A stretch of DNA of 64,000 nt from Aureococcus anophagefferens (lineage: Eukaryota; Sar; Pelagophyceae; Pelagomonadales; Pelagomonadaceae), in the NCBI RefSeq assembly GCF_000186865.1, contig NW_008705572.1, positions 1,101,249-1,165,248 on the forward strand, given 5' to 3'. Made by a program: the position numbers and the translations under genes. Below are positions 14,738 through 63,296 of the stretch, piece after piece. Each line of letters opens with the position of its first letter. Within the stretch, counting starts at the first letter, position 1. Below the pieces are notes generated by a model that had not been told where the DNA came from, did no database searches, and saw only the letters and a program-made list of their open reading frames with translations.

Positions 14738-16271
14738 TTAGGGCTCGTAGGCCGCGAGGTCGTCGAAGGACAGGTCCGCCGGCGACAGGCACCGCGAGAG
14801 GCGGAAGCCCGCGTCGGCGAGCCGGCGCCGCGCGCGCGCGAGGTCCGCCGCGTCCGCCGGGAGGTTGAGGAGCTCGAGGCGCGGCGGCCGCGGCTCGTCC
14901 GTTTCGCCCGGCGCCTCGAGGCGGGCGACGACGGCCCGGAGCGACACGCTGTGGCAGTGGCAGGCCGGCGGCCGCGCGCGGCCCACGGCGACGTGGACGT
15001 GCGCCGTCATGCTCCAGCTCCGCTCGGGCGCGGACCTGTGCCGAAACCAAATCTTCAACCCGACTTCAATGTGAGCGTATTCGAAAGTTTTGACACAAGC
15101 TCTTCAGTTGGGCTTCGAGAACTCGACGAGAGCGATCGATCCGTCCAAAAATCAGCCGAATCGACTTCGATTTGACCGAGCTAGAGAATCCTCAAGTTTG
15201 GTCAGGACCACCCAAACCAGTGGTTGGTTTCGGCACAGGCGCGGACCACATCGCGCGCTGGCGGTGGAAGTAGACGTCGTCGGGCCCCAGCGTCCGCGCC
15301 GCGGCGTGGCCGTAGACGGCGCGGACGTGGTCCGCGACGGCCGCCTCGAGCGCGCGGAGCCCGGGCGCGTGCGCGGCGCGGAGGTCGCTGTCGTCGTAGA
15401 GGTACGGCGCGGCGTCGCCGGCCGCGGCGAGGAGCGCGCCGACCGTGATCGCCGGCGCCTTGCTCGAGGACGCGTCGCGCGGCGGCGACGGCGGCGTCGG
15501 CGGCGACGCGCGCGACGGCGCGACGACCGTCGGCCGCGGCGACCGCGCGCCCGCGCGCGGCGGCGGCGGCGGCGCGCGCGGCGGCGGCGGCGCGGCGGCG
15601 GCGGCGGCGGCCGGCGCGCCGCGGCGCGCGAGGCGGCTCGCCAGGCGCAGGTCCGCGTGGCAGTGGAAGAAGCGGCTCCGCTTCCGGAGCTCCGGGTGGA
15701 TCCACCACGCGACCAAGCCGAAGCCCCTCCGCGACCGCTCCGCGGCGCGCGCGAAGTCGCGGGGTGCGAGGCCCGCCGCGAGCGCCGCGACGTCGACGTA
15801 GCCCGGGTTCGGCATGACCAGGAAGTCGCTGCAGAAGAGGAAGCACTCGGGCCGCGCGAGGAAGAGCTTCGTGAACGCGCAGTCGGCCAGATCGAGGAGC
15901 GCCGCGAGGAACTCGGGCACGGCGACGGCGGCGCCGCCCCGGCGCAGCGCCGCCTCGCGGCCGGGCGTCGCCGACGGCGGCAGCCGCCGCCGCCGCCCGG
16001 GCGGCGAGCCCCGCTCGGGCGACGGCGTCCCGCTCGGCCGCCGCAGCGGCGCGCGCAGCAGCACGTGCGGCGCGTCGAGCTCGCCGCGGATCTTCGCGTA
16101 GATCGCGCCGCGCGTGGGGCGCGACTTTAATGCGAGGCGCGCGCGGGCGACGGCGCGCACGACGTCGGCGTAGGGATTGCTGGTCGGCAGCGGCGCCGCG
16201 CCCGCGCGGTCCGCCGCGAGCAAAGCTTGCACGTCGTCGACGATCGAGGCATCGATAGTGTTTTCTGTCAT
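14738..16271 (-). CDS. unknown protein, two exons split by introner element 1
   Basis: Exon 1 (16271-15247) and exon 2 (15035-14738) join in phase 2 to give 440 residues. The junction reads HRQRAMW|SAPERSWSMTAHVH and is open to the stop at 14738. No family recognised. The N-terminal part includes PEFLAALLDLADCAFTKLFL, ECFLFCSDFLVMPNPGY and RRGFGLVAWWIHPELRKRSR, a globular-looking region. A Pro/Ala/Ser-rich linker (about residues 215-275) follows, then a second domain containing PACHCHSVSLRAVVARLEAP. The 211-nt intron (15246-15036) is the transposon-like element plus one target-site copy, with GT-AG ends. Without splicing the frame would run into PVPKPTTGLGGPDQT and stop at 15192. Confidence 0.7.
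15036..15238 (-). mobile_element. introner element 1 (203 bp, TIR 15 bp, TSD GCGCGGAC)
   Basis: Perfect 15-bp terminal inverted repeats (CTGTGCCGAAACCAA at 15036-15050, its complement at 15224-15238) are flanked by perfect 8-bp duplications at 15028-15035 and 15239-15246. On the minus (transcribed) strand the duplication is GTCCGCGC, so it supplies the GT donor, and the element end supplies CAG. It contains the family core CGTCCAAAAATCAGCCGAA at 15142-15160 on the plus strand, i.e. antisense to the host gene. No ORF of its own: non-autonomous. Confidence 0.92.
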
Positions 16272-16341
16272 AACCGCGTCGCCGCGTGAGCTGTGCTACG
16301 CGCGCTTTGGCAGCGTTCTCAGCGCCATGCTGGCCGGGTTT

Positions 16342-16499
16342 GATGACAATTTGATGACACGCATGGTTGCCAGTGCCTCTCAAGTTGACGTGACGTTGCC
16401 GTCGTGAAAGGGGAGTGGGCCTGATGACAATTTGATGACACCGCATTGGTTGCCTCTAAAGTTGACGCGATGTTGCCGTCGTGAACGGGGAGTGCGATT
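16342..16499. repeat. 81-bp tandem repeat, two copies
   Basis: Copies begin GATGACAATTTGATGACAC at 16342 and 16423. Both continue through a GTTGACG..TTGCCGTCGTGAA segment to GGGGAGTG, with scattered substitutions and small indels. They fill the space between the unknown introner-containing gene and the 3' end of the Ala-rich protein gene. Confidence 0.85.
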
Positions 16500-18237
16500 A
16501 CAAGGTACGCGGATCGCCGGACGCGCGGAAGCCGAGGGCCGCCTTGGCGCCGCGCCAGGCCCGGAGCGCGGCGCGCTCCGGGGCCGCCTTGGCGCCGCGC
16601 CAGGCGCGGAGCGCGGCGCGCTTCGGGATGAGCGACGCGCCGACGGTCTGGGCCGCGGCGACGGCGGCCTTCGGCAGCGCGCCCGCCGCGGCGTAGGAGC
16701 TCTGCGCCGCGGCGACGGCGGCCTTGGGCAGCGCGGCGGCGGCGGCGCCCGACGCCGCGACGCTGCTCCAGGCCGCGGCCGCCGGCGCCGCGAGGCCGGC
16801 CCACGCCGCGGCCGCGAGGCCCGCGGGGTCCGCGAGCGCCGCGAGCGCCGCCTTGGCGAGGGCCGGCGCGGCGGCCACGGCGCGGAAGAGGGCGTCGGGC
16901 AGCGCGAAGAGCTGGAAGAGGACCGTGAGCGCGCACATGGTCGCGAAGACCATCGTCGGCGCCGCGTTCTTCGAGTTGAGGATCCACGGCAGCCCGTCGC
17001 CGACGCGGAACGTCGTCCGGAGCGGCGCGAGGAGCTCGCCGAGGGCCGCCTCGTCGACGAGGGCCGGCAGGGACGCCGTGGGCTGGCGCCGCGGCGCCGC
17101 GCGCGGCCGCGGCGCCGCGGAGGACCGGCCGCGGCGGAAGAGGCGGCTCCGCGAGAACTTCTGCGGGCCCGACTCGACGGTGGCGACGAGGGCGCCCGGC
17201 GTCGCCGCCGAGGGCACGAGGGACGTGATGGAGAAGGACGCCGTCGGGTCCACGGTCACGCTCGACAGGAAGAGCGCCGCGCCGCCCTCCACGAGCGGCG
17301 TCGTCGTGTGCGCGAGCGCGAGCGCGTAGGTCGGCTGGGACGCCCAGAGCCACTGGGGCGGCGCCTCGAAGGACGGCCGGTCCGGGAGGGACACGACGGG
17401 GTCCCGGAAGAGGATCGCGCCCCGGTCCGCCTCCAAGACGAACGACACGGCGAACCGGAAGTTCGACTCGCGGTAGCCGCCGTCGCCCGACGCGTAGCGC
17501 TCCAGGGGCGTCGGCGCGCGGCGCACGCGCGCCGTGCCGTCGACGCGCGCGCGGCCGCCGGCGTCGATGGTCGTCGTGAAGTCGAGCGCGTCGTCGGCGA
17601 CGCAGACCTCCTTGCCCATCCACTTCACGAGGACCTTGCGCACGATGCCGTCGAGGCGCCGCCGGATCCAGAGGGACCCGTCGAGGTCCGCCCCCGTCAT
17701 CGTGAGCTCGGCGACGAGGGACCCGCGCCGCCCGCCCGTGAGCACGCGCCGGTGCAGGTTGACGAGCTCGGCTTCGAGACGGCTCGCGACCAACTTCGGG
17801 CCGCCGGGCCGCGCGCCGATCCAGACGACGCCGGAGCTCGTGAGGCGCACGACGTCCGGGCAGCGCCGGCTCAGGCCCTCGCTCACGTCGCACTCCTCGG
17901 GCTCGACGGCGTCCACGCGCTCGACGTGCTCCAGAGCCAGCCGGCCCCGCTTCTTCTGGTCGCGGATCCACCCGCGCGCGCACTGCTCCGTGATCCAGCT
18001 CCGCGCGGACCGCCGGGGAGCGTCATCGGTGTCGGCGAAGAAACGGAGCCACGCCCGGCGCTTGGGGGGCGCGGGGTCGACGGGGACGGCCGTTGATGCG
18101 GCGACGAGGATCGGGGCGACGGTTTGGGGTGGTTTCTTGTCCGGTTTGCGCGCGGTCACGCGGTGCGTCGGGGTGCGGAACGCGGCGGCGAGCGTCGACA
18201 AAGCGATGAGGGCGCGCATGGCGCGGGGCGGGCGCAT
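16498..18237 (-). CDS. leader-bearing protein with Ala-rich repeated C-terminus, function unknown
   Basis: 579 residues from 18237, or 573 from Met at 18219 (MRALIALSTLAAAFRTPTHR). The leader fits plastid or ER targeting; AAAFRTP resembles the heterokont signal/transit junction. The central part (about residues 75-330) looks like a beta-rich domain (ELVNLHRRVLTGGRRGSLVA, GADLDGSLWIRRRLDGIVRK), perhaps distantly like LmeA/DUF2993 lipid-binding proteins, but I cannot confirm this. A hydrophobic segment (TMVFATMCALTVLFQLFAL) is followed by an Ala-rich tail with internal repeats, ALPKAAVAAAQ twice and RAALRAWRGAKAA twice. Repeats at the DNA level are recent. Confidence 0.65.
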   Translation of the reverse strand: MRPPRAMRALIALSTLAAAFRTPTHRVTARKPDKKPPQTVAPILVAASTAVPVDPAPPKRRAWLRFFADTDDAPRRSARSWITEQCARGWIRDQKKRGRLALEHVERVDAVEPEECDVSEGLSRRCPDVVRLTSSGVVWIGARPGGPKLVASRLEAELVNLHRRVLTGGRRGSLVAELTMTGADLDGSLWIRRRLDGIVRKVLVKWMGKEVCVADDALDFTTTIDAGGRARVDGTARVRRAPTPLERYASGDGGYRESNFRFAVSFVLEADRGAILFRDPVVSLPDRPSFEAPPQWLWASQPTYALALAHTTTPLVEGGAALFLSSVTVDPTASFSITSLVPSAATPGALVATVESGPQKFSRSRLFRRGRSSAAPRPRAAPRRQPTASLPALVDEAALGELLAPLRTTFRVGDGLPWILNSKNAAPTMVFATMCALTVLFQLFALPDALFRAVAAAPALAKAALAALADPAGLAAAAWAGLAAPAAAAWSSVAASGAAAAALPKAAVAAAQSSYAAAGALPKAAVAAAQTVGASLIPKRAALRAWRGAKAAPERAALRAWRGAKAALGFRASGDPRTL

Positions 18238-18670
18238 CGCGCGTCGCGACGCGACTTGCGGCGCGGTTGATGCTTTTGCAGAAGGCCTGCCGGCTCAACA
18301 AGTTCTTCTGGCAAGGCCTCTGGCACTTCATCAACATACTTGAACTGGCGCCGTGGGCTGACCCCTGCCCGAGGTGCAGGCCGAGCGGGCAGCTTTGGAG
18401 ACGCGCGCCGCGGGGCAGGCGGTCGCCGAACGTGCGGCGGCCGAGGTCAAGTTCGTGGCCGAGGCCGCCGCGGCGGCCTTCGCGTGGCGGACGCGGTGAG
18501 AGGCGAGGTAGGAGCTCGGAACTAGCGGCGCCGCCGTCGCCGCAGCTTCACCGTCGCCGCCACCTCCAGGACTCGCCTGTGAGCTAGATTAGAGCTGAGG
18601 CGGCTTGACGACGGCTCGTTGGCGTCAATGTTGCAGCTCGCCGAAAGCGCAGCCACAAGTAGCCACACGT

Positions 18671-19342
18671 GGACAAGCGCGGCTGCTGAGTGCTTCACGA
18701 TGGTCCACGTGCACGTGCGCTTCATCCTGGCCGCCGCGCTCGCTGCAACCGCAGTAGCAGACGGCCAGACCGTCGCCTGCGTGACGGGCGCGACGGGCTT
18801 CCTCGGCCAGGAGCTCGTCGCCCAGCTCCTCGAGAAGGGCTACGCCGTGCGCGGCACCGTGCGCTCCGCCACCGGCAAGAACGCGAAGCGTCTGACGGAC
18901 ATGGCAGGACAAGCGCGGCTGCTGAGTGCTTCACGATGGTCCACGTGCACGTGCGCTTCATCCTGGCCGCCGCGCTCGCTGCAACCGCAGTAGCAGACGG
19001 CCAGACCGTCGCCTGCGTGACGGGCGCGACGGGCTTCCTCGGCCAGGAGCTCGTCGCCCAGCTCCTCGAGAAGGGCTACGCCGTGCGCGGCACCGTGCGC
19101 TCCGCCACCGGCAAGAACGCGAAGCGTGCTTCACGATGGTCCACGTGCACGTGCGCTTCATCCTGGCCGCCGCGCTCGCTGCAACCGCAGTAGCAGACGG
19201 CCAGACCGTCGCCTGCGTGACGGGCGCGACGGGCTTCCTCGGCCAGGAGCTCGTCGCCCAGCTCCTCGAGAAGGGCTACGCCGTGCGCGGCACCGTGCGC
19301 TCCGCCACCGGCAAGAACGCGAAGCGTCTGACGGACATGGCA
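18671..19342 (+). repeat. tandem triplication of the 5' end of the SDR gene
   Basis: Three near-identical units start at 18671, 18907 and about 19131. Each contains the start codon and about 64 codons of the reductase; the ATGs are at 18700, 18936 and 19136, spaced 236 and 200 bp. The second unit lacks the ~36-bp segment at the junction. Spacings are not multiples of three, so ORFs from the first two ATGs stop at 18993 and 19193. Confidence 0.95.
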
Positions 19343-20305
19343 GCAGACCTCTTCAAAGGCAAATTCTTGACGCTCGTCGAGGCGGACCTCCTCGGCGGCG
19401 AGGCGGGCTTCGCGCCCTGCGTCGCCGGCGCCGACGTGCTCTTCCATACGGCGTCGCCGTTCAAGAGCACGGGCATCGACGACCCGCAACGGCAGCTCAT
19501 CGCCCCCGCCGTCGAGGGCACGGAGGCGGCGACGAAGGCCGCCATCGCCTCCGGCTCCGTGAGTAAGATCGTGCTGACGTCGAGCATCGCCGCGACCATG
19601 GGCGGCTTCGGCGACAAGGACGGCTGCTTCGACGAGACCGACTGGAACTGGTCGTCCGAGGCGAAGATCCACGACGTGGCCATGGACGCCTACCGCTACT
19701 CGAAGCTCGCGGCGGAGCAGGCCTTCTGGCGCCTCGTCGCCGGCGCCGACGGCGTCGAGGGCGCCGCGGTGCTGCCCGCGTTCATCGTCGGCCCGCCTCG
19801 CACGGACCGCACGGACGGCGAGAGCCTGGGCAACATGGTCGCCGCGCTCTCCGGCGCCACCCCGCCGCGCGGCGACACGCCCATGGTCGACGTCCGCGAC
19901 GTCGCGGCCGCGCACGTCGCCGCCTACGAGACGCCCGGCGCCGCCGGCACGAGCCCGCCGGAGAAGTACCGCTACCTCGCGTCGACGCCGACGGCCTACC
20001 GCCGCGACGACCTGCTCTCGCTCCTCGCGGACGCGTACCCGAACGCGGCCATCGCGCCGCGCGCCGCGCCGCCGCCGTCGACGGCCGAGCGCGCGCGGGA
20101 CAAGGTCGTCTTCTGCTCGAAGAACCTCGGCACCCTCGCGGGCGTCTCCGTGCGCGCCGCGCCCGACGCGCTCCTCGACATGGCGCACGTCATGCTCGAG
20201 CTCGGGTCCGTGGCGGTGACGCCGCGCGCGAAGGCGCCGCCGGGCACGCGCTTCGTCAAGAAGCAGGCCCGCCGCCTCCGCAACCTCTTTAAGAAGGAGC
20301 TTTAA
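19136..20305 (+). CDS. extended SDR reductase, dihydroflavonol-reductase/cinnamoyl-CoA-reductase-like, secretory leader
   Basis: 389 residues from the third ATG, the only one giving a full protein. MVHVHVRFILAAALAATAVADG is a signal-peptide-like leader. The cofactor loop is TGATGFLG (G30, G33, G36), and the catalytic set is S150 with Y186-RYS-K190. VLFHTASPFKSTGIDDPQRQ and LPAFIVGPPRTDR are typical of the DFR/CCR-like group, which reduces carbonyls with NADPH. Substrate in an alga unknown. The C-terminus is basic (RFVKKQARRLRNLFKKEL). Two truncated extra copies of its 5' end precede it and could act as upstream ORFs. Confidence 0.88.
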   Translation: MVHVHVRFILAAALAATAVADGQTVACVTGATGFLGQELVAQLLEKGYAVRGTVRSATGKNAKRLTDMAADLFKGKFLTLVEADLLGGEAGFAPCVAGADVLFHTASPFKSTGIDDPQRQLIAPAVEGTEAATKAAIASGSVSKIVLTSSIAATMGGFGDKDGCFDETDWNWSSEAKIHDVAMDAYRYSKLAAEQAFWRLVAGADGVEGAAVLPAFIVGPPRTDRTDGESLGNMVAALSGATPPRGDTPMVDVRDVAAAHVAAYETPGAAGTSPPEKYRYLASTPTAYRRDDLLSLLADAYPNAAIAPRAAPPPSTAERARDKVVFCSKNLGTLAGVSVRAAPDALLDMAHVMLELGSVAVTPRAKAPPGTRFVKKQARRLRNLFKKEL

Positions 20306-20391
20306 GGCACTGCGGCGTGGCCGCCACGCGTTCCGCGCCGCTTTAAGAAGGCCCTGCCAATGTTCTTCCGTTAAAGCGGCGGCGCGCGCCT

Positions 20392-22332
20392 CTAGGCGTG
20401 GGACATGCCGAGGATCTTGGCGAGCTTGTCGGCCTGCTTCTTCTTCTTGACGTCGGCGTCCTTGGGCTTGCGGCCGTTCTCCTTCTTCGCCTCCTTGGCC
20501 TTGGCCTTGGCCTTCTTCGCGCTCTTGGCCGCGGCGGCGTCGCGCGCGCGGATTTCCATCGCGTCGTCGTCGTCGCTGTCCGCGTCCGCGTCGACGAGCG
20601 CCGCCGCCGGCTCGTCGTCGTCGCTCGTCGCCGGCGCCTCGCCGCCCTTGGACTCCTCCGTGCCGTCGAGGCCCGCCGAGAGCTCCGGCGCGTCGCGGTC
20701 GAGCTCGTCGGCGGCCGCCGCGCGCCGCTCCGCGGGCGTCCGGTCCTTTTCCTTGAACTGGGCCGCCTTGGCGTCGGTCCACTTGCCGAGCATCTCGTGC
20801 TGGGACGTGCCGTCGCGCGCCCGCACGAGGCTCTGCAGGATCTTCGACGTCTTCGACACCTTCTTCGCGGCCGCGGAGCCGCCGGCGCCCGCGGACGCCG
20901 CGGGGCGCTTGAGCAGGTCCAGCAGCAGCTTCTCGATGGCGTTGCGCTGGGGCGGCGGCGCGCCCCTGCCCAGGCCGGCCTTGGCGGCCCTGGCGGCGTC
21001 GATGGCGTCGAAGATGCGCGCCGGGCCGAGCTTCTCCAGCGCCTGCGCGCGCCGGTAGTGCGCCTTCACGTTCCTCGGGTCCGCCTCCAGCGCCGCGGCG
21101 CACTCGTCCGCGCAGGCCTCGAAGCACTCGCGGGCGCGGCTATCGAACGTCGCGTGCGCGAGGCTCGCCTCGCCGAGCTTGAAGAGGCACGTGGACCGGT
21201 TGCAGAGGAGCACCGCGACCGCGGGGCGGTTCACCGCGCCCGAGACGTCCGTCACGTCCGCGGCGACGTCGACCTTGAGCTCGAGGAGGGCCGCGGCGTA
21301 GTGGCGCAGGGCGCCGTCGAAGTCGCCGGCGGCGAAGGCCTCGTTGCCCGCCGCGCGGCGGCTCTTGGGCTTCGGCGGCGGCTTCGGCGGCGCGGCCGGC
21401 GGCGGCGGCGGCGCGCGCGCCGCGGCCGGCGGCGGCGGCGGCGCGTCGAGGTCGAAGCCGCCGGCGCTCAGCTCGACGACGACGGGCTCGTCGCCGCAGA
21501 CCTCGTCGTCGTCGTCGTCGCCGACGTCCCGCAGCGCGACGCCGCCGCACGCCTCGCCGTCCGCGCCGCTGTGCGGCGGGAACCGCGAGAAGTCGTCGAA
21601 GAGCTGCTTCGCCAGGGCCTCCTCCTCGGGGTCGCCCCGGGACTGGGCGCAGGGCACCCAGTCGCTCAGCGTCGCCAGCAGGTCCCGGCTCAGGCCCATG
21701 CGCATGCCCTCGCAGTGCGTCTGCCGCGCCCACCCGATCCAGAACGCCAGCAAATCCAAGCAGCTCCGCTCGCCGCCGGGGAAGGAGTCGCGCCGGTTCG
21801 CCGCCAGGCCCTCGAAGAAGGGCGACGCGCCGCCGTCCATGGCCAGCAGCGCCGCGTGGAGCGCCGCGTCCTCGGAGCCGCGCCGCGGCGCGTCGTACCA
21901 TCGGAGATCGGGGTCGCCCGTGATGCGCAGGAAGACCTCGACGGCGTGGGCGCGCACGTGCAGGTCGCCCTCCGTGAGCCGCGCCGCGAGGTGGTCCAGG
22001 CCGCCGGCGACGACGAAGCGCCGGAGGAAGCCCGACTCGCGGTGGAGCATGAACATGAGGCCGAGCGCGGGTCGCGCGGGCGACTTCTGGGCCGCGCCGG
22101 GCTTCTTCGGCGCGACGAGGCGCGCGTAGGCGCCGCCGTCGGACGCGCTCGGGAAGAAGAGCAGGCGCCGCGCCTCGTCGGCGCACTCGCAGCTCGGCAC
22201 GCGCGCGGCCATGGCGGCCACGGGCGGGTCGGCCCAGAGGTCCGTCAGCGACTTGCGCAGCCCGTCGCTGTCCGGGCAGTGCGCCATCAGCGCGTCGAAC
22301 TCCGCCTGCCGCGCGACCATCGTGCCCGACAC
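20392..22332 (-). CDS. TPR protein with helical (ARM-like) N-terminal region
   Basis: 646 residues from 22332, or 642 from the Met four codons later. The N-terminal ~250 residues are helical and Leu-rich (GLMFMLHRESGFLRRFVVAG, DLHVRAHAVEVFLRITGDP), suggesting ARM/HEAT-type repeats. A Pro-rich linker follows, then a TPR domain: SRRAAGNEAFAAGDFDGALR, AVLLCNRSTCLFKLGEASLA, CAAALEADPRNVKAHYRRAQ. The C-terminus is acidic then strongly Lys-rich. The TPR has the carboxylate-clamp look of Hsp90/Hsp70 co-chaperones (N in GNEAF, N in CNRS, K/R in KAHYRR), so a chaperone-linked role is a reasonable inference. Convergent with the SDR gene. Confidence 0.78.
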   Translation of the reverse strand: MSGTMVARQAEFDALMAHCPDSDGLRKSLTDLWADPPVAAMAARVPSCECADEARRLLFFPSASDGGAYARLVAPKKPGAAQKSPARPALGLMFMLHRESGFLRRFVVAGGLDHLAARLTEGDLHVRAHAVEVFLRITGDPDLRWYDAPRRGSEDAALHAALLAMDGGASPFFEGLAANRRDSFPGGERSCLDLLAFWIGWARQTHCEGMRMGLSRDLLATLSDWVPCAQSRGDPEEEALAKQLFDDFSRFPPHSGADGEACGGVALRDVGDDDDDEVCGDEPVVVELSAGGFDLDAPPPPPAAARAPPPPPAAPPKPPPKPKSRRAAGNEAFAAGDFDGALRHYAAALLELKVDVAADVTDVSGAVNRPAVAVLLCNRSTCLFKLGEASLAHATFDSRARECFEACADECAAALEADPRNVKAHYRRAQALEKLGPARIFDAIDAARAAKAGLGRGAPPPQRNAIEKLLLDLLKRPAASAGAGGSAAAKKVSKTSKILQSLVRARDGTSQHEMLGKWTDAKAAQFKEKDRTPAERRAAAADELDRDAPELSAGLDGTEESKGGEAPATSDDDEPAAALVDADADSDDDDAMEIRARDAAAAKSAKKAKAKAKEAKKENGRKPKDADVKKKKQADKLAKILGMSHA

Positions 22333-24184: not shown

Positions 24185-24296
24185 CGCGCAGCGCGGGTAG
24201 GTTGCCAGTGCCTTCATGCTGAAACGAAGCAAATCCATTTTGCGATGGCAATGCGACCTCATTGCCGCGTGATGACACATCCGTGAGCAACACGAG

Positions 24297-52170: not shown

Positions 52171-52235
52171 GTCGTTTTACATCCGAAGTCGCTTTACATC
52201 CGAAGTAGTTTATTTCCGAAGTCGCTTTACAGCCG
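52171..52235. repeat. 16-17-bp tandem repeat x 4 across a stop codon
   Basis: Units start at 52171, 52188, 52205 and 52221 and read GTCGYTTTACATCCGAA or close variants. The last unit contains the stop codon of the CtpA-like gene (52227-52229), so this is another gene-end duplication. Confidence 0.8.
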
Positions 52236-53670
52236 CGTGCGCGGGTCGCTCGCGAGGCACGCGCGGGCGTCGCCGTCGCAGAGGACGTCGGCCTTCAAGC
52301 CGACGCCGTTGAGGTCGGCGCCGTCGGGCGTGAGGTAGGACGCGCGGCTGACGAGCACGGAGCCGCCGCCCGGGAGGTCGAGCGCGCGCTGGATGCGCGC
52401 TTTGCCGTAGGTCCGGGCGCCGCCGACGAGGACCGCCCGCTTCCGCGCTTGGAGCGCGCCCGCGAGGAGCTCCGCGGCCTGTGTGGAAATCAACCAGTGA
52501 GCTGGGACGTCGGGGCCAAACTTGAGAATTCTCTAGCTCGGTCAAATCGAAGTCGATTCGGCTGATTTTTGGACGAATCGATTGCTCTCGTCGAGTTCTC
52601 GAAGCATAGCAAAATAGTCTGGTCCAAACCGTTCGATTACGGGTTGAAGATTTGATTTCCACACAGTCCGCGGCGGACGCGGTCCCCCGGTCGACGAGCA
52701 CGGCGAGCGGCTCCGAGTAGCGCGGCGGCCCCCGCGGCGCGACGCGGGCCTCCGTCGCCGCGCGCGTCTTCACCGTCGCGACCAAGGCCGAGCCGCCCAG
52801 GAACAGCGCCGCGGCGTCGAGCGCGCCGTCGACGTTGCCGCCGCCGTCGCCCCGCAGGTCCAGCGCGAACCGCGCCGCGCCACGGCGCCGCGCGGCCTCC
52901 AGCGCGGCGTCGAGGCCGGTGGCTGTCGCGCCGGAGATGCCTCGGACGGCGACGATCGCGTAGCCCCCCTCGTCGACGGACAGGAGCTCGACCTCGGGCG
53001 CCGCGGCGACGAGCGCGCGCTCGAGCGTCGCCGTCGCGGCCTTGCCGTCGCGCAAAAAGGCGACGGAGACGCGCGTGCCCGGCGCGCCCCGGAGGGCCGC
53101 GGCGGCGGCCGCGGCGGTGGCGATCTTGACGTCGTCGACGGCGACGAGCGCGTCGCCCGCGCGGAGCGGCGACCGGCTCGCCGGCGACGCCGGCAGCACC
53201 TCCGCGACGACGGCGTCCTCGGCGGCGAGGCGCAGGCCGACGCCGCCCGTCGCCGCCGCGCCGGACGCCGCCGTGGACCGCAGCGCCGCCGCGAGCTGCG
53301 GCGGCAGGAACCGCGTGTAGGGATCGCCCGTGGCTTTGCACAACTCCGCGACGATCGCGGGACCCGCGGCGGCGCCGTCCGCGTCGAGCGCGCGCTCCCG
53401 CGCCGCGGCGACGGCCGCGCGCCAGGCCCCGGATTTCATGAGGGATGCGTCGTAGAACTCGCGCTCGATGGCCGCGGCGACGTCGTCGACGAGCTCCAGC
53501 GGCGACGACCCGTCGTAGATCTCGGCGCGCGCCGCGCGCGGGCGCAATAAAAGTGGTACCACGCAGCGCTGGCCGACGCTGCGGCGCGTGAGCGACGCTG
53601 CCGACGCTGCGGCTGCGAGTGCGAGCAGCAGCGCTGCGCGACCGTGCGGTCGATGTGCTGGCACCATCAT
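52227..53670 (-). CDS. CtpA-type carboxy-terminal processing protease, split by introner element 2
   Basis: Exon 1 (53670-52675) and exon 2 (52478-52227) join in phase 0 to give 415 residues. An Ala-rich leader (ALLLALAAAASAASLTRRSV) suggests plastid/thylakoid targeting. A PDZ domain covers about 120-210 (TGGVGLRLAAEDAVVAEVLP, RAGDALVAVDDVKI). The S41 domain has the nucleophile S332 in VLVDRGTAS|AAELLAGAL and the lysine general base K358 in TYGKARIQ. The intron falls exactly after the Ser codon. Photosynthetic homologues mature the D1 protein of photosystem II. Unspliced, the frame reads out of the catalytic site into unrelated sequence, so splicing is essential. Confidence 0.92.
52479..52666 (-). 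mobile_element. introner element 2 (188 bp, TIR 15 bp, TSD GCCGCGGA)
   Basis: Perfect TIRs (CTGTGTGGAAATCAA) are flanked by perfect 8-bp duplications at 52471-52478 and 52667-52674. On the transcribed strand the intron starts GCCGCGGA and ends CAG, so it is a GC-AG intron of 196 nt. The family core is at 52557-52575, sense with respect to the host gene. The interior is highly similar to element 1 over its 3' ~85 bp, but the TIRs differ at several positions. No ORF. Confidence 0.93.
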
Positions 53671-55762: not shown

Positions 55763-57513
55763 TTTCTGAATACCGTGATGCGTCTTTGGATGGGGTCTCG
55801 GCAAGTAGGGCAACTCTCGAGCGGGGCCGCGCAGGCTTCGCAGGTAGAAAGATGGCGGCACGGTAGGAAGCAGACCGCGGCGTCGGCTTCCATGCACACG
55901 CAGCACTCGTTGCGCTCCGCAAGGTCGTCCGCGCGGCGGCGCTCTGCGTCGCGCTGGGTCGTGAGCTCGGTCTTGATCTCCTTGGCAGAGGTGGTCGCCT
56001 CGGCCGCGAGGGCGAGGCCGGAGCGCGGCGGCGGTTCGTCGGCGGCGCGCTCCGTCCGGGCGCGCTTCGGCGCGGGCTCGTAGGTGGTCTCGCCGCTATC
56101 GACGTCGATGACCTCGCGGTTGAGCTGCGACCGAGCAGTGGCGAGCGCCTCGGCGGTAGATTTGAGCAGATGCGGCAGGAGCGATGTGCCGTGCCGGTTG
56201 TGAAATCGGTGGATCTGAAGGAACTTCAGCAAAAACGACGGCTCGGCTTTTAGGCGTGGCGAGACACACGACATGATCTTGCTGGCATCGCACATTTCAT
56301 CGTTGTGTAAATGTTCCCAATTCGCCTGGAGTGAGTTCATCGCTGCGAGTGCAAAATTTTCATCATCCCGCAGGCGCTCCGAGGCGTATCTGAACTCGAC
56401 CACCGATCTCTCCATTGCCTCGCGGACAGTCTGTTCGTCATCCTTCAGGCGCTCTGAGGCGAGCTCCAAACTCAGTACACCTCGATCCCACTCTGGGTCC
56501 AGGTAATAAGCTTCCCGCAGGCGCTCCGAGGCGTACCAGAGAACGTCTTCGGGGTTGCAAGTATGGTCGTTTTCTTCTAGTGTAGTTTGTATGATAGTTT
56601 CGTCGTCGCGCAGCCTTTCCGAGGCGAACTCTAGGGTGCGCCACCCGCCTCTTTTCACGGCCTCGAGAATGAGTTCTTCGTCGTCCCGTAAACGCAGCGA
56701 GGCGTACTCAATAACGTGATAGCCACCAACTTCTAGTGCCATGCGGACGATCGATTTGACGTCTTGGAGACGCGCCGATGCGTACTTGAGAGCACTGCCG
56801 TTTCTGTCCACGGCCCCGCGCACTGTTTCTTCGTCGTCGCGCAAACGCTCCGAGGCGAACTCGAGAGCACGAGCGTCTCGGTCCACGACCCGACGCACGA
56901 AATCATCGTCGTCGCGCAGCCTTTCCGATGCGAATTTGAGAGCAATACCGCTGGGGAAAATTTCTTCGTCATCGCGCAAACGCTCCGAGGCGAACTCGAG
57001 AGCAGGAGCGTCTCGGTCATCGACCCGACGCACGAAACCATCGTCGTCGCGCAGCCTTTTCGGTGCGAGTTTGAGAGCAATACCGCTGGCGAAACCACGC
57101 CTTCCAGATGCCAAAGCTGCGCGAACTATTTCCTCGTCATCGCGCAGGCGCTCCGAGGCGAACTCGAGAGCACCAGCGTTTCGTTCCACGGCTTCGCGCA
57201 CGATTGACTCCTTATCGCGCAGACGCTGCGAGGCGTACTCGAGGATGGTATGCCTTTTTTTAAAAGCTGCCCTGTTTTTTAAAGCTGCGAGGACTATCGT
57301 TTCGTCATCTCGCAGGCGCTCCGACGCAAATCGCAGAGCATGTCCATCACTGGATTCCACAGCTGCGCGCACGATTTCGTCGCTGTCGCGCTGTACATCT
57401 GTGGCTTTGTAGAGGGCCACAAAGCCACCACCAGGGTCCTTAGCCAGAGCGAGGACCGACGCGTCCGAATTAGGCCTTTGAATTCGCCGCAGCTGGAGCC
57501 GGCTGGCCTCCAT
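55759..57513 (-). CDS. DUF4116-repeat protein with C-terminal RING finger (probable E3 ligase)
   Basis: 584 residues. Residues about 45-420 are a run of ~25-residue repeats of the form ALEFASERLRDDEEIVRAAV, the DUF4116 repeat. A 135-bp (45-residue) internal duplication is recent: units at about 56841 and 56976 are nearly identical. The C-terminus is a C3HC4 RING (NECCVCMEADAAVCFLPCRH, CEACAAPLESCPTCRDPI), as in IAP/LRSAM-type ligases. DUF4116 repeats probably bind protein; the RING would ubiquitinate the target. Less GC-rich than its neighbours and richer in T at third positions. Repeat instability would change target binding. Confidence 0.85.
   Translation of the reverse strand: MEASRLQLRRIQRPNSDASVLALAKDPGGGFVALYKATDVQRDSDEIVRAAVESSDGHALRFASERLRDDETIVLAALKNRAAFKKRHTILEYASQRLRDKESIVREAVERNAGALEFASERLRDDEEIVRAALASGRRGFASGIALKLAPKRLRDDDGFVRRVDDRDAPALEFASERLRDDEEIFPSGIALKFASERLRDDDDFVRRVVDRDARALEFASERLRDDEETVRGAVDRNGSALKYASARLQDVKSIVRMALEVGGYHVIEYASLRLRDDEELILEAVKRGGWRTLEFASERLRDDETIIQTTLEENDHTCNPEDVLWYASERLREAYYLDPEWDRGVLSLELASERLKDDEQTVREAMERSVVEFRYASERLRDDENFALAAMNSLQANWEHLHNDEMCDASKIMSCVSPRLKAEPSFLLKFLQIHRFHNRHGTSLLPHLLKSTAEALATARSQLNREVIDVDSGETTYEPAPKRARTERAADEPPPRSGLALAAEATTSAKEIKTELTTQRDAERRRADDLAERNECCVCMEADAAVCFLPCRHLSTCEACAAPLESCPTCRDPIQRRITVFRN
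56841..57105. repeat. 135-bp near-identical tandem duplication inside the DUF4116 gene
   Basis: GCAAACGCTCCGAGGCGAAC begins both copies, at 56841 and 56976. Copies match nearly base for base through the GAGAGCAATACCGCTGG segment. The older repeats around them are much more diverged. Confidence 0.85.
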
Positions 57514-57581
57514 AGGATGAGCGATGGCAGCCTTTTTACGCAAAAGCTGGCTTGCATTTTTCAACAAAGCCGCTCGACACG

Positions 57582-58709
57582 ATGAGGCAGCCCATAGCGC
57601 TCGCGCTGCTCTGCGCCGCCGTAGCCGACACCGCAACAAAACCGCACACGCTCGTGCTCTACGCGTACTCGCAGCACAGCGCCGAGGCCGTGGCGAACGT
57701 GCGCTATTTCCTGCGCTTCGGGCTGTCAAACGCGACCGACGCGACCTTCGTCTTCGTCGTCAACGGCTGCCACAGCGTGCAGTTCCCAGCGGACCGGCCC
57801 AACGTGCTGGTCGTCGAACGGCCGAACACGTGCTTCGACTTTGGCGCCTGGGGCGTCGGCTTGGAGGCCGCCGAGGCCGCCGGGATCGCCTACGACTTCG
57901 TAGTTTTACTCAACGGGTCCGTGCGCGGGCCCTTCCTGCCGGCCTACGAGCGGCGGCCCTGGTGGCGCGTCTTCACGGACGGCCTCAGCGTTGCCGACGC
58001 GCCGGGCCTGCTGGGCACGACGGCCAACTGCGCAGACCTCGACGCGTCGGACGCTCGCTCCGCGCACGTGCAGTCCATGGTGCTGGCCATGACGCGACCT
58101 ACGCTGGACCGCGTCGGCCGACGGTTCCTCCAGAGCTGCCCGGCGGACAAGGCCGGCGCCATCTACGACGGCGAGCTGCCCCTGAGCCGGGCCGTGCTCG
58201 ACGCCGGGTTAGAGCTTGGCGCGCTGCTCCTCGCGCACGGCCCTCGAGGCACGACGATCCCGCCGCACCCGCCGGCCGACCTCCTCGCCTCCTGCGCCGC
58301 CGTGCGGGAGAACAGCGAGCTCGGCCTCGGCGACGTCTACTTTCCCGCGCTCGGCGGCGACGCGCTCGACGTGCACCCGCTGGAGGTCGTCTTCTACAAG
58401 ACCGCGCGGTCCGGCGCGGGCCGGGCGACGCTCGACCGCCTCACGCACTGGGCCTACTTCCACGCGGCCGGCGGCGCCCTGCGGGACCCGGCCGCGCGGC
58501 GCCGCGACTTCTCCGCGGACGCGCTCGTCGGCGACGACTGCGACCAGACGCACTGGCCCGTCGCCGACGCCGACGGCGCGGCATCGCCGGCGGCGCGGGA
58601 CGCGGCGCACCTCGTCGCCCTCGAGGGCGCCCTGCGCGGCGCGAACGACGAGCTCGCGCGGCTCCGGGCGGAGAACGCGGCGCTCCGCGACCGCGCGGTC
58701 TACGTCTAA
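57582..58709 (+). CDS. secreted/luminal glycosyltransferase-like protein
   Basis: 375 residues, signal peptide MRQPIALALLCAAVADTATK. RPNVLVVERPNTCFDFGAWG and YDFVVLLNGSVRGPFLPAYE resemble rhamnan-synthesis-F-type and related eukaryotic glycosyltransferases of the secretory pathway. EVVFYKTARSGAGRATLDRL follows. A Leu/Ala/Arg coiled coil ends the protein. Family assignment is from motif resemblance only. Convergent with the coiled-coil gene, 8 bp from its end. Confidence 0.6.
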   Translation: MRQPIALALLCAAVADTATKPHTLVLYAYSQHSAEAVANVRYFLRFGLSNATDATFVFVVNGCHSVQFPADRPNVLVVERPNTCFDFGAWGVGLEAAEAAGIAYDFVVLLNGSVRGPFLPAYERRPWWRVFTDGLSVADAPGLLGTTANCADLDASDARSAHVQSMVLAMTRPTLDRVGRRFLQSCPADKAGAIYDGELPLSRAVLDAGLELGALLLAHGPRGTTIPPHPPADLLASCAAVRENSELGLGDVYFPALGGDALDVHPLEVVFYKTARSGAGRATLDRLTHWAYFHAAGGALRDPAARRRDFSADALVGDDCDQTHWPVADADGAASPAARDAAHLVALEGALRGANDELARLRAENAALRDRAVYV

Positions 58710-58717
58710 AAGGAGAC

Positions 58718-60398
58718 TTACTTCCCCTTCGCGTAGAGGAAGTTGGCGTCGATGATCTCGGCGAAGTAGTCGTCGAGCTCGTCGAACTCGCAGAACTCGA
58801 GGCCGTGGACGAGGTCGATGGGCTTGTAGGCCGCGACGGCCTTCCGCATGGGTGGGAAGTCGCGCATGGCCTTGAAGACCGCGTGGTCCGGGTGGGGCCC
58901 CGCGGCCGCGTCGTCGCAGTACTGGAGCACGCAGGCCACGGGGAGGTGGTCCTTGGAGTTGGTGCAGTGCATGGCGTAGCGCGCGGTCGCGTCGAAGCAG
59001 AGCTCGCGGAAGATCTGCCGCTTCGACTTCACCTTGGGCCGGTTGAGGTACGCGAGCGCGTCGGCCTCGGCGGGCTGGAACGTGGAGATGACGTAGCCCG
59101 CGCCGCCGCGGCTCGACTTGCGGCTCGTCGACGGGGGCACGTCGCCGCCGAGCGCGCGCGCGACCATGGCGTCGAGCCGCTCGGCCTCGGCCTCGACGGC
59201 CGGCGGCACCGCGGCCGCGGGCGCGGCCGCGCCGTCGGGCAGCGGCGGCGGCGCCGGCAGGGACTGGCCCGGCGGCGCCAGGGGCGCGAGCACGGGCTTG
59301 ACGGACGTCTGCTCCGCCGCGCGCGGCGCCTTCCGCGGCTTCGGGTCGCCGAGCGACGCGCCGCCGCCGAAGGCGCCCACGGACCGGCTCCGCACGTACT
59401 CGAGCTCCGACGCCTGGGAGCTCCACTGGCTCGAGATGACCGTCGGCGGCGCCGGCGTGCGCGGCGGGATGGCCGAGCGACGCGTCCAGACGGAACGGGC
59501 CGGGCCCGCCCGGCGCGGCCTCGAGGGGGCCCAGCGGGTCCTTGGGCCGCTTCGGCAGCCTGCCCGCGCCGGCCTGGTGCTTCCAGCTCCCGCAGCGGAA
59601 GGGCTTGCGGCCCTGGCGCTCCTCCTCCGTGCGCTTGTAGGCCGGCACGGCCCGCGCCTTCGCGGGCGACGGCGCCGGCGCGTCGGGCTCCGCGTCCTCC
59701 TCGAGCATGGGCGCGTCGAGGACCTCCGCGGGCATCTTGGGCCAGACGTAGGCCATGATCTCCTCCGACGACGTCGCCTTGGCGAAGGCGGCCATGTACT
59801 GCGCGCGCGCGCGCTCCTCGTGCCGCCGCCGCCGCTCCTTCGACGCCTTCTTCTCGAGCTCCATCCACTTCTCGACGAAGACGCGCCGCTCGTCGGCGCG
59901 GTCGTCCTCCTCGCGCGACGCGCTCAGCGCGTCCTCGGCGCCCATGGCCTCGCGGTTCGCCGCCTCGTCGTTCCGGAGGCCGTCGACGCCGAAGAACGTG
60001 TCGCCGAGGGACCGCTGCTCCGCCTCCTCGGCGCGCAGCTTCAGCGTCTCGAGCTCCGGCGTCAAGGTCACATAGACCGCCTCCTCCTTGCGCTTCGTGA
60101 TGTCGCTGAGCTCCCGGAGGTAGGCCGCGAGCCGCCGGAATTCGACGGTGTCGTACTCGGCGACGGGCGGCGCCGCGTGCTCCTCCTTGACCTCCTCCTT
60201 GACCTCGAGCTTCTTCTCCGTCTCCTGCGTGAAGAAGCGGTTCCGCCCGCTCGCCAGGTTGAAGCTGTCGCTCCGCTTGAAGTTCTTCAGCTTGTGGTTC
60301 GCCATGGCGCGCAGCGACTCGGGCAGCTCCGTCTGCCCGCCGGCGCGCGCCGTCTGCACGACGCTGCCCAGGCCCATGGAGTGGCCGGAGTGGGACAT
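58718..60398 (-). CDS. coiled-coil protein of unknown function, frameshifted near 59470
   Basis: The N-terminal part (MSHSGHSMGLGSVVQTARAG) leads into coiled coils (VEKWMELEKKASKERRRRHE) and KRTEEERQGRKPFRCGSWKH. The frame from 60398 loses coding character after GPFRLDASLG at about 59475. A second frame resumes with IPPRTPAPPTVISSQWSSQA and runs to a stop at 58718 through RQIFRELCFDATARYAMHCT and LVHGLEFCEFDELDDYFAEI. The total length is 3n+1, so one extra base (or two missing) near CTCGGCCATCCCG would restore a ~560-residue protein. No short intron fits. Assembly error or real lesion undecided; no family recognised. Confidence 0.65.
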
Positions 60399-60567
60399 CG
60401 GGGATGTCGGGACGGCGGGGTCCGTCGGGCGGCGCCGGCGCTTCGCGGCGCGCGCGGTGGCACGGCGGCCCCACCTCCAAACGCGCTACGACGGGGTTCA
60501 CTACTAAAATAAATCCTCAAGGTGCCGTCTCTAACTGAGAGAAATCGACGATGGCGCTGGTAAGACG

Positions 60568-63296
60568 ATGACGAGCGGGTCGCTCGGCGCGGCGATGCGA
60601 CGGCTGGCCGCCGCCGTCGTCCTCGGCGCCGCGGGCGGCACCTGCCCGGCGGGCTCCCGCCTCGCCGCCTGGCTGCCCGGCGTGCCCTGCGTGCCCTGCG
60701 TGGCGGGCAGCTACAGCAGCGCCAACGACAGCGCGCGCTGCACGGAGTGCGGCTACGGGTCCATCTCCGGCGACGGCGCGACCGCGTGTGCGAGCTGCGC
60801 GCCCGGGACGTTCGCGACCGTCGCGGGCCGGCCCTCGAACGTCTCCGGCGTCGCCTCCGGCGCGACGCGATGCCGGGACTGCCCCGCGGGCTACGCGAGC
60901 CAGGCGGGCGAGGCGCTCTGCGAGCCCTGCGCCGCGGGCACGACGAGCGCCGCCGGGGCCGCGGCCTGCGCCTTGTGCGAGCGCGGGTCCTTCCGCCGGG
61001 CCCCGGACGCCGCGTGCGAGCGCTGCGCGGATTTCGCGGGCTTCGACGCCGAGCGGTGCGCCGCGGGCACGACGCTCGCGACCGTACCGCTCCGACGGGG
61101 CTACTGGCGCGCGGCGCCGGACAGCGACGACGCCTACGAGTGCCGCGCGCGCGCCGCGTGCCCCGGCGGCGCGTCCAACGCGACCGCGACGGCGTGCGCG
61201 CCGGGCTACGCCGGCGTCGCGTGCGCGTCCTGCGCGCGGGGCGCCTACCGGTCCGGGGCGACGCGGACCTGCGAGGCCTGCGGCTCCGCGGGCGGGCGCC
61301 GGGCCGCACTCTGGGCCTACGGGCTCCTCGGCGTCGCGGCCGTCACGGGTTTGGGCTTCCTGAGCTGCTCGACGCGGAAGCAGACGGCCCAGAGCTTTTT
61401 CCTCGCGCCCGGGGGCCAGGTGGATGTCTTTTGGGGCATCCGCAACACCGTGGGCCTCGCGAAGCACGCCGTGGCGCCCCTCGCGAGCCGCTTCGAGACG
61501 GATCTGCTGTCGAACGGCGTCGCTCACCTCGCGGCGGACCTCGAGAGCCTGCCCGACGCGCGGTTCCTGCTCCGGTGGATCACCAAGGCCAAGGCCGTCT
61601 TCACGTTCTACCAGATCCTGGCGACGCTGCCCGTGGCCTTGGAGGCGTCCGCGTTCCCCTCCGTGAGCTCGCGGTTCTTCGTCATTGCGAACGCGTTCTC
61701 GCTGAGCTTGCTCGACCTGATCCCCGCGGCCTGCTTCCCCGCGGCGTCGCCGCGCGCCGTCTACGTGAGGAGCTTCGCGCAGGCCATCTTCCTGCCGCTC
61801 GTCTTAGCCGGGGCGCTCTACCTGTGCTACCGCGCGAACGGCGTCATCTATGCCGAGGACCGGCGGCGCGTGCCGGGCTTCTACGTGACCCTATTCTTGC
61901 TGCTCGTCCACTTCTCGCTGATCTACTGCAGCTTCCAGGCCTTCCGGCCCTTCGCGTGCGAGTCCTTCGAGCTGGGCGGCGGCGAGGCGCGGGCCTACAT
62001 GCGCGCGGAGCCGACGATCGCGTGCGACGGCGCGCTCTACCGGACCGCGCTGATCAGGGCAGGAAAAGGGTGATTCAACGTCGCTTCAACGTGAGTGTTC
62101 CGCGCGCGCGCGTTTCGGAAACAGCACCCACGCTTCGAGAGCGCTCCGAGCGATGATCGCTCGTCCAAAAATCAGCCGAAACGAGCGGAAAACGACCGAG
62201 ATAGGAGCCTTTGAAGTTGGGAATTTCGCACCCTTTTCCTGCCCAGGTGCTGATGCCCCTCGCGTGTGCGGCCCTCTTGCTCTACCCGCTGGGCATCCCC
62301 CTGCTCTACGGGTTCCTCCTCGTGAACGCGCGCGAGATCCTGCACCCGGGCGACATGGAGATCCACACGCGCGCGACGTTCGTCGTCGCGGAGGCCGTCG
62401 CCGAGGCCGCGCATCACGGCGCCGCGGAGACGCTCCACGACCACGCGTCGACGGACCACCCCGTGCTGCCCAAGCTCGAGGACATGCGGCGGCTCCTCCA
62501 CGCGGCGAGCCGCGAGGCGCTCGACGAGTTGAGGGCGGACCACAAGCGCGTCGTCATGCGGAGCTCGCTCCGGAGCGACATCAAGTCCACGGAGGCGTAC
62601 CAGGCGGCGCTCGCGCGCATCCGCGACGACCGGAGCGAGCACCGCGTGGACCAGGGCGCGACGGAGGACATCCGCAACTACATGTTCCTCTGGGGCTGCT
62701 ACCAGCCCCGGTGCTGGTGGTGGGAGCTCGTCGAGGCGTCGCGGAAGATCGTGCTCACGGGCGTCCTAGCCGTCGTCCGGCCGGGCTCCAAGTACCAGCT
62801 CTGCTTCGGCTACCTCGTCTCCCTGACCTACGCCGTGCTCTACGCCAAGTTCCGGCCCTTCAACGGCAAGGACGACGAGCTCATCGCGGAGAGCTGCCAG
62901 TGGTCGCTCGCGTGCGTGCTCTTCATCACGCTCGTCTGGGACGGCTTCCTCCCGCCGGCCGTCGCCGCGGGGCTGCTCGCGGGCTTCGGCCTCGTGCCCG
63001 TCGTCGTCACCGCCGTCGTCATGCGCCGCGAGGTGCAACGCGACCGCGCGCGGCGCAAGCTCCTCCGCGACAAGAGCGAGCGCCGCATCAAGCTCATGGC
63101 CGCCGTCCGCAAGACCGTCGAGGTCAACGCGCTCGCGCGGCCCCACCGCCGCGACAGCCCGGCGCGCGAGGGCCGGCGGCTCCGCGCGGACGACGGCGAC
63201 CACACGCCGGTCCGCGCCTTCGACGACGGCGCGAGCGCCAAGTACGAGGAGAAGCGGCCGCCGCCGGAGGAGGAGCTGGATGTGAGGGAGCTGTAA
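60568..63296 (+). CDS. GCC2/GCC3 Cys-rich multi-pass membrane protein, split by introner element 3
   Basis: Exon 1 (60568-62046) and exon 2 (62247-63296) join in phase 0 to 842 residues. A signal peptide is followed by ephrin-receptor-like Cys-rich repeats (CVPCVAGSYSSANDSARCTE, CASCAPGTFATVAG, CEPCAAGTTSAAGAAACALC) to about residue 240. At least six membrane segments follow, from LWAYGLLGVAAVTGLGFLSC onward. YMFLWGCYQPRCWWWELVEA and SRKIVLTGVLAVVR are typical of a large family of stramenopile surface proteins with this layout. The cytosolic C-terminus is charged. Ligand unknown. The splice join is LYRT|VLMPLACAALLLYPLG, inside a membrane segment; unspliced, translation stops at 62073. Confidence 0.85.
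62055..62246 (+). mobile_element. introner element 3 (192 bp, TIR 18 bp with one mismatch, TSD G[C/T]GCTGAT)
   Basis: Ends are CAGGGCAGGAAAAGGGTG at 62055-62072 and the complement of CTGGGCAGGAAAAGGGTG at 62229-62246. Target duplications are GCGCTGAT (62047-62054) and GTGCTGAT (62247-62254), differing only at base 2. The 200-nt intron starts GC and ends CAG. The family core CGTCCAAAAATCAGCCGAA is at 62162-62180; outside it the interior is diverged, so this is another subfamily. No ORF. Confidence 0.9.

Follow-up and report, generated by a model that had tools for sequence, protein, structure and literature searches.

Within a 64,000-nucleotide stretch of the Aureococcus anophagefferens genome (the window), three protein-coding genes are each interrupted by an element of about 200 bp with terminal inverted repeats and a target-site duplication, and the question raised by this locus is how the genes accommodate such insertions and whether the insertion sites were chosen or sorted afterwards. 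Mass gain of introns through introners is documented. Introner elements were reportedly described in A. anophagefferens by Huff et al. in 2016, with the element contributing one splice site and the duplication the other. That core mechanism is already published for this species, and our reading, to which we give a probability of about 0.93, is that the three elements are A. anophagefferens introner elements in which the duplication would supply the 5' splice site and the element the 3' splice site, and whose surviving insertions have been sorted by selection.

Element 1 (15036-15238, 203 bp) belongs to family A and carries the repeat CTGTGCCGAAACCAA at both ends, identical over 15 bp. Its target duplication, GCGCGGAC, is perfect, with the exon copy at 15028-15035 and the putative donor copy at 15239-15246, which reads GTCCGCGC on the minus strand. 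The predicted intron (15036..15246, minus strand, 211 nt) would run GTCCGCGC...CAG, with the core of the element antisense to the gene. Element 2 (52479-52666, 188 bp), also of family A, has the repeat CTGTGTGGAAATCAA at both ends, again identical over 15 bp, and a perfect duplication, TCCGCGGC, at 52471-52478 (exon copy) and 52667-52674 (donor copy). The latter would begin a predicted intron of 196 nt (52479..52674, minus strand) with the form GCCGCGGA...CAG. Element 3 (62055-62246, 192 bp) is of family B; its ends, read inward, are CAGGGCAGG... and CTGGGCAGG..., giving repeats of 18 bp with a single mismatch at position 2. Its duplication also has one mismatch, the donor copy GCGCTGAT lying at 62047-62054 and the exon copy GTGCTGAT at 62247-62254, and the candidate intron (62047..62246, plus strand, 200 nt) would read GCGCTGAT...CAG. 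At the mismatch GT is probably the older state, because the homolog P0047 has Val there.

The first-pass annotation had placed elements with terminal repeats and 8-bp duplications at these three positions, and this stands, with the qualification that element 3 is imperfect in both features. It had also stated that both ends of every element read CTG/CAG, so that CAG lies at the 3' end in either orientation. This applies to most of family A but fails for family B, in which T stands at position 2 of both ends in 0/43 sampled copies: the left end of element 3 is CAG and not CTG, and therefore its acceptor would be functional in one orientation only. A profile search of the window found exactly three copies of families A and B. 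A blind scan of the window for exact 8-bp duplications adjoining 14-bp repeats, with up to 2 mismatches allowed, gave four matches. Two are elements 1 and 2, both free of mismatches, and the others are GC-rich and have 2 mismatches; the scan misses element 3 because the duplication of that element is imperfect.

Removal of the element and one duplication copy restores the host reading frame at all three sites, as had been claimed. This is a sign of insertion into coding DNA and by itself no proof of splicing, because clean excision always regenerates the old sequence. The host gene of element 1 (14738..16271, minus strand) encodes 440 aa after excision, with the predicted intron in phase 2; its product has no Pfam match at E 0.01 and matches P0048, also of 440 aa, at 98%. 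The gene of element 2 (52227..53667, minus strand; 414 aa after excision) encodes a PDZ domain and a peptidase S41 domain. The element lies inside the latter, and in the spliced product the S41 domain spans the junction, through which the match to P0001 (95%) is uninterrupted. The gene of element 3 (60568..63296, plus strand; 842 aa after excision) has an ephrin-receptor-like cysteine-rich part, and its spliced product aligns with P0047 without gaps over 842/842 residues, 832 of them identical (99%). Homologous proteins from other collections thus cross the junctions of all three genes without interruption. For genes 1 and 2 the nearest matches with a species name are A. anophagefferens proteins, which points to this alga as the host; gene 3 has one match. 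P0001, P0047 and P0048 may come from alleles with an empty site or from cDNA. At the junction of gene 2 the public A. anophagefferens gene models conflict; one of them, P0004, is missing residues upstream of the junction.

The first-pass annotation had proposed a genome search with the core of the elements, a tabulation of the first two bases of each duplication and a comparison of orientation relative to the gene. With up to 2 mismatches allowed, the core CGTCCAAAAATCAGCCGAA matches the 49-Mb genome 3790 times, 1925 forward and 1865 reverse, whereas the reversed control pattern gave no match in either direction. From these a sample of 117 core matches was taken, and 93 copies with 8-bp duplications and inverted repeats were resolved automatically by a fixed filter that required at least one CTG end but set no condition on the first two bases of the duplication, GY or otherwise. 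The remaining 24 matches were inspected manually in the coding direction; of these, 20 rows, representing 19 elements, fit the pattern and 4 are cut or without resolution.

A usable GY donor together with a CAG acceptor is present in all 93 automatically resolved copies. GY begins the duplication in at least one orientation in 93/93, compared with 37.2% of flank 8-mers. When the coding strand was assigned by codon usage, with an open frame across the empty site, it agreed with the orientation given by GY plus CAG in 78/78 comparable copies (82 copies have one usable orientation, and 4 of these are without a coding call). By coding strand alone the donors are GY in 86/86 copies, 49 GC and 37 GT, and no other dinucleotide occurs. 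Where CTG stands at one end alone, that end is the acceptor in 53/53 coding copies; the other 33 have CTG at both ends. These counts bear out the earlier statement that the duplication always starts with GY and, as far as the letters can tell, would act as the 5' splice site. GT is enriched among the GY donors (37/86 vs 21.3%, p 8e-6). A 90-copy version gives 40/90 (p 9e-7). In the dinucleotide table of 90 copies the orientations come partly from the GY rule and the zeros for other dinucleotides are partly built in; 86/86 is the non-circular count.

The proposed sequence of events begins with a non-autonomous DNA transposon of about 200 bp, inserted by a putative transposase that generates the 8-bp duplication and would hardly read GY. 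The GT or GC that opens the upstream duplication copy would become the 5' splice site and the element's downstream CAG the 3' splice site, and the element and one duplication copy would be removed from the transcript, leaving the protein unchanged. Insertions lacking GY on the sense strand would be lost, and GC would be retained about one third as often as GT.

The first-pass annotation had left it as selection for, or targeting to, 8-mers that start with GY. Of these two, selection after insertion is favoured as the better explanation, because any mirror bias at the far end of the duplication is weak at most, against 100% GY at the sense end. RC at the far end occurs in 26/86 coding copies; randomly drawn coding sites with GY have it in 22.9% of cases (p 0.12). 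The wider sets give 27/90 (p 0.13) and 30/93 (p 0.04), the last being the 90 plus three copies without an assigned strand; the test is given in three forms because these three extra copies all have GY at both sides. That the transposase itself prefers GY-starting 8-mers, with splicing benefiting by luck, is improbable. GY in 93/93 copies and the p value of 0.04 in the widest set would fit such a preference, as would the rather frequent C at -1 (57/90 vs 46.5 expected), but a transposase is expected to treat both ends alike, which the counts of 26/86 and 27/90 do not reflect. The favouring of GT over GC is a splicing preference, and beyond it the largest deviation at other positions is a chi2 of 10.8 with 3 degrees of freedom.

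Selection on the donor does not account for where the copies lie. Coding copies make up 86/93 of the sample compared with 63% of random sites, an excess that GY filtering alone cannot explain. In a simple model the odds would exceed what survivorship allows by about 75-fold, which would mean that insertion is directed to coding chromatin or that copies outside coding DNA are purged. Enrichment of introners in genes was reported by Gozashti et al. (2022) for 161/175 genomes (PMC9860276).

A donor could instead be the GT inside the terminal repeat (CTGT|GTGG), in which case each insertion would add 12 nt, or 4 residues, to its protein. One gene 2 model, P0003, retains 4 extra residues (AADC) at exactly that place, as though the donor were the GT four bases inside element 2, and the Aureococcus sp. 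MAG example described by Gozashti et al. likewise lengthens the transcript by 12 bp, of which the element supplies 4 and the duplication 8 (PMC9860276), whereas the present copies are read as silent. Such a donor is nevertheless very improbable: it would not call for a duplication that opens with GY, yet GY is found in 93/93; the repeat GT is absent from family B and from the CCG type of family A; and no extra residues occur at the junctions in P0001, in P0002 or in the proteins that match genes 1 and 3. A reading of the elements as ordinary MITEs that stay unspliced in decayed genes is scarcely credible in spite of their MITE hallmarks, since retention in the transcript would give an in-frame stop (elements 1 and 3) or a frameshift (element 2) in host frames that are otherwise intact, and the lone CTG end is always at the acceptor.

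The copies agree with Aureococcus introner elements in species, in 8-bp duplication and inverted repeats, in a length of about 200 bp (210 bp is given as characteristic in PMC9481584), in a copy number of thousands and in their mostly coding location, and we see nothing different in the core mechanism; the splice-site origin fits at the sequence level. The statement in the first-pass annotation that introner elements are described in Aureococcus agrees with the host as well as with length, duplications and repeats. Insertion between nucleosomes is reported as a further trait of the Aureococcus elements. The introners described in PMC9860276 also combine a duplication-derived 5' splice site with an element-borne 3' splice site, and GC donors there reach up to 50% of an introner family. 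Introners of Amoebophrya, as described in PMC7789003, similarly have direct repeats bordering the exons, together with inverted repeats capable of folding back, but their splice sites are mostly non-canonical and their direct repeats vary in length, whereas here the sites are GY-AG and the duplication is fixed at 8 bp.

Searches for a source of the transposase gave 0 matches for the hAT and KDZ families, each with a silent control, 0 matches for MULE with a control positive in 3 genomes, and one sub-threshold match for IS1595/Merlin. In a de novo scan of 264 kb, which included a run of N, no longer element with the same repeats was among the matches listed. To see how such bare donors might be recognised, U1 snRNA was sought as well: the Rfam model found none, its control being silent, and two places in the genome that match the 5' end of U1 had no Rfam match. 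Viral carriage was considered and rejected: the one exact core match in viral_contigs is taken as chance because no introner repeats flank it and the contig, AT-rich and phage-like, has a long open frame at that place.

The two terminal repeats of a copy vary together. Linkage was calculated from the unaligned positions of the ends, with position 2 and two family A copies that have a B-like end excluded; a linkage table from a MAFFT alignment was set aside because the family A ends looked misaligned in it. Mean V2 between mirrored positions is 0.57 in family A and 0.36 in family B, compared with 0.12 and 0.17 within the same repeat: mates about 170-200 bp apart covary, and there is hardly any linkage between neighbours in one repeat. 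The interior is a mosaic. The correlation of repeat distances across the element is 0.52 (0/2000 permutations), against 0.10 and 0.06 with the adjacent interior.

We lean towards an origin of this covariation at the DNA level, through copying between repeats (intra-element conversion or recombination) or a transposase that demands symmetric ends. The linkage and distance values point that way, and strand asymmetry is absent. In family B the core runs in both directions relative to the ends, on shared interiors, although two founders would account for this too. Conversion between repeats that leaves identical termini and an inverted interior is recorded for the insertion sequence ISWpi1 of Wolbachia (PMC3004938), which is bacterial and has its own transposase; in the present elements conversion is suggested by covariation in a small sample, and the repeats differ at one or more variable positions in 24/48 family A and 24/43 family B copies.

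Mirrored positions would also covary if selection maintained an RNA stem drawing the two splice sites close, and a hairpin that links exon ends was proposed for Amoebophrya introners (PMC7789003), but such selection is unlikely to be the cause here. RNA pairing predicts G.U mismatches above A.C in transcript sense, and with position 2 left out the counts, which are small, are 14 vs 12 in family A and 7 vs 20 in family B, where 15 of the 20 A.C mismatches fall at one position. The family B pair that would hold the acceptor A is Watson-Crick in 0/43 copies. These counts give no support to pairing selection at the RNA level.

Taken with the coding excess, DNA-level mirrored evolution of the repeats would describe a self-homogenising, gene-directed transposon with symmetric ends, either of which could serve as acceptor in family A; we offer this joint reading tentatively, with the odds somewhat against it. 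In family A, symmetric ends are what would permit splicing in either orientation, and mirror covariation, if confirmed genome-wide, would give a testable handle on how such ends are kept up. To the known mechanism these copies add detail on the evolution of the ends and on the insertions that survive. They amount to a natural insertion experiment on donor survival, in which GT and then GC are retained, no other dinucleotide is seen in 86 coding copies and hardly any consensus exists beyond the donor dinucleotide, and introner copies of this kind help to tell target choice from selection.

The three introner elements of the window, at 15036-15238, 52479-52666 and 62055-62246, are borne out by the window sequence at these coordinates, together with their terminal inverted repeats and target duplications. 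An 8-bp duplication is present at all three, but its two copies are not identical at element 3 (62055-62246), where GCGCTGAT vs GTGCTGAT differ by 1 mismatch. The first-pass annotation had both ends of all three elements reading CTG/CAG; this fails at element 3, whose left end is CAG and not CTG, so that in the sense of its host, gene 3 (forward strand), CAG is obtainable from the right end only. The donor copy of this element, that is, the duplication copy removed with it as the predicted intron, probably changed from GT to GC after insertion, since the homologous protein P0047 has Val at the junction, as encoded by the GTG of the right duplication copy.

Homologues whose source is either insert-free DNA or RNA are available for all three hosts. 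The predicted spliced protein of gene 3 aligns with P0047 without gaps over 842/842 residues, of which 832 are identical; that of gene 1 (reverse strand, element 1 at 15036-15238) and P0048 are both 440 aa (98%), and that of gene 2 (reverse strand, element 2 at 52479-52666) matches P0001 at 95% over the full length. Two more distant homologues of the gene 1 product, P0050 and P0053 (56-58% identity), are also continuous across the element 1 junction. The gene 2 product matches three proteins annotated as 'serine-type peptidase [Aureococcus anophagefferens]', and element 2 lies within its S41 domain (residues 237-396, junction after residue 331); the gene 1 product matches two A. anophagefferens records, one 99% identical over 40% of length, and the gene 3 product has a single match in the part of the database searched. 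On these matches the window is assigned to A. anophagefferens or to a strain very near it. The public gene model P0003 of A. anophagefferens has aligned blocks close to the gene 2 product and differences mostly of the gene-model type; at the gene 2 junction (window 52471-52674) it retains AADC, as would follow from a donor lying 4 bases within the element, and in P0004 the residues before this junction are missing. Both deviations are taken for gene-prediction errors. The annotation of other introner genes may be wrong in the same way as P0003.

In the genome (49.05 Mb, 86 contigs) the core, the internal sequence common to introner copies, was matched 1925 and 1865 times on the two strands with up to 2 mismatches, and a control pattern 0 times. 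At least 100 exact core matches in the genome seeded the sample; among the matches listed, 93 were on contig C1 and 7 on C2, and because of how they were picked the sample is skewed to two contigs and to copies whose core is intact. Sequence was taken at 99 of the 100 listed places, as 20 stretches of 10 kb and 60 shorter stretches, plus the window; one stretch (L026, ~7300-7630) contains a run of N, either withheld or unsequenced. This sequence held 117 core hits with up to 3 mismatches, 110 with some candidate ends and 7 with none. Copies counted as resolved if they were 180-240 bp long, had CTG at one end or both, and showed no more than 1 mismatch in the duplication and no more than 4 over 12 bases of the repeat; 93 copies passed this filter and 17 of the 110 were dropped.

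That the duplication begins with GY (GT or GC) holds in at least one orientation for 93/93 sampled copies, as against 37.2% of flank 8-mers, and GY was not among the filter criteria. An orientation with GY on one side and CAG on the other likewise exists in 93/93, a result to which, for CAG, the one CTG end required by the filter contributes. The coding strand was called across the empty site with a model of codon usage whose training set was the long frames at these loci, and an open coding frame was found at 86/93 copies. A single usable GY-CAG orientation exists for 82 copies, 78 of them with a coding call, and agrees with the coding strand in 78/78. By coding strand alone, 49/86 donors are GC and 37/86 GT; CTG is at both ends in 33/86 coding copies, and in the other 53 the lone CTG is the acceptor end (53/53). 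Intron phases 0, 1 and 2 number 35, 15 and 36 in coding copies, and GY phases in random coding sequence 542, 340 and 493. Where only one orientation is usable, the core is antisense to the gene in 54 copies vs sense in 28. When the 24 left-out core hits (17 + 7) were read by eye in the coding sense, with the rule known, 20 rows (19 elements, one with two cores) fit a GY donor and CAG acceptor, several with imperfect duplications and two (L009:8530, L051:493) with barely recognisable ones; four (L066, L068:785, L079:18, L085:67) are cut or not resolvable, and none of the 24 contradicted the rule.

The copies fall into two families. In family A (50 copies, ~203 bp) both ends read CTG in most copies, and for most of the family the first-pass statement that CAG is at the 3' end whichever way the element lies is correct; it does not extend to family B (43 copies, ~192 bp), in which exactly one end has T at position 2 (43/43) and the usable orientation places that end at the acceptor. 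The family B core runs in either direction relative to the ends, and interior types are shared between the two directions (L011 and L048, for example, have one 17-site type in common); its direction is weakly associated with the interior overall (nearest-neighbour agreement 0.66 vs 0.56 shuffled, maximum 0.77). A-like and B-like ends are joined in some copies. One of these, L012:6036-6148 (113 bp, without core, one B-like and one A-like end, perfect duplication AGGTCCGC), reads as a hybrid or internally deleted introner. At L016:4896-5363 two cores share a single pair of ends, one donor-like and the other acceptor-like; this is probably a single long introner, either internally duplicated or with a copy nested in it. 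Elsewhere in the genome a sub-threshold IS1595/Merlin-type match (G000:C9:510964-511128, E 0.097) lies in a 700-codon open frame.

The repeats vary among copies yet tend to agree within a copy. Within-copy mismatches over 15 bp number 71 in family A vs a shuffled mean of 154 (minimum 129, 2000 shuffles), and 88 in family B vs 112 (minimum 95). This association holds largely between single bases: over 48 family A copies (5 positions) and 43 family B copies (4 positions), V2 of mirrored positions averages 0.57 and 0.36, respectively, vs 0.12 (A) and 0.17 (B) for positions inside a single repeat and 0.10 in both families for crossed positions; with one copy per repeat combination, mirrored values are 0.43 and 0.25 vs 0.12 and 0.10 within a repeat. 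Some mirrored values are low, such as those at position 11 in A (0.17) and position 15 in B (0.11); in A, position 6 is tightly linked to position 7 (0.78 and 0.89), the two forming a single block. Among 44 family A copies, repeat distances correlate across the element (0.52, 0/2000 permutations) and little with the adjacent interior (0.10, 55/2000; 0.06, 380/2000); left and right interiors are loosely linked (0.17), and the interior is thus a mosaic. Two explanations of the mirror covariation are left, DNA-level copying between the arms and a transposase demand for symmetric ends; RNA pairing as its cause was not supported by the test. For Wolbachia, PMC3004938 describes repeat-to-repeat conversion with inversion of the intervening part. 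In a search of openly licensed papers, no title dealing with mirror covariation between the repeats of introners was found.

The central finding for A. anophagefferens is already known, its introner elements having reportedly been described by Huff et al. in 2016. Other papers name these introners and their repeats (PMC9481584, PMC7789003), give a 210-bp length (PMC9481584) and, for other introners, derive donors from the duplication (PMC9860276).

GY duplications had been attributed to insertions selected for, or targeted to, such sites. A DNA transposase is expected to treat both target ends alike, so a GY preference should appear as RC at the far end of the duplication, which 22.9% of random GY coding sites have. 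RC was found in 26/86 copies by coding strand alone (p 0.12), in 27/90 of all oriented copies (p 0.13) and in 30/93 when the three strand-unassigned copies, each of which has GY at either side, are included (p 0.04). A weak GY preference of insertion is possible and is insufficient to yield 100% GY at the sense end; selection is favoured over targeting. At the other positions within 12 bases on each side, the strongest deviations are at +5 (chi2 10.8) and -1 (chi2 9.3; both on 3 degrees of freedom), with T at -1 in 1 copy vs 8.5 expected. GT is over-represented among GY donors (37/86 vs 21.3%, p 8e-6; alternatively 40/90, p 9e-7), so that GC is retained at 0.34 times the rate of GT, a preference that looks like an effect of splicing efficiency.

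Random sites are coding in 62.6% of cases. With every non-coding insertion retained and coding insertions surviving according to the donor table, 14% of survivors would be coding; the observed 86/93 requires ~75-fold higher odds, a figure that depends on the coding calls and assumes equal survival of a non-coding insertion and a genic GT insertion. PMC9860276 reports introner enrichment in genes in 161/175 genomes. Steering of insertions to genes would be enough to explain the coding excess of the sampled copies, as would loss of non-coding copies.
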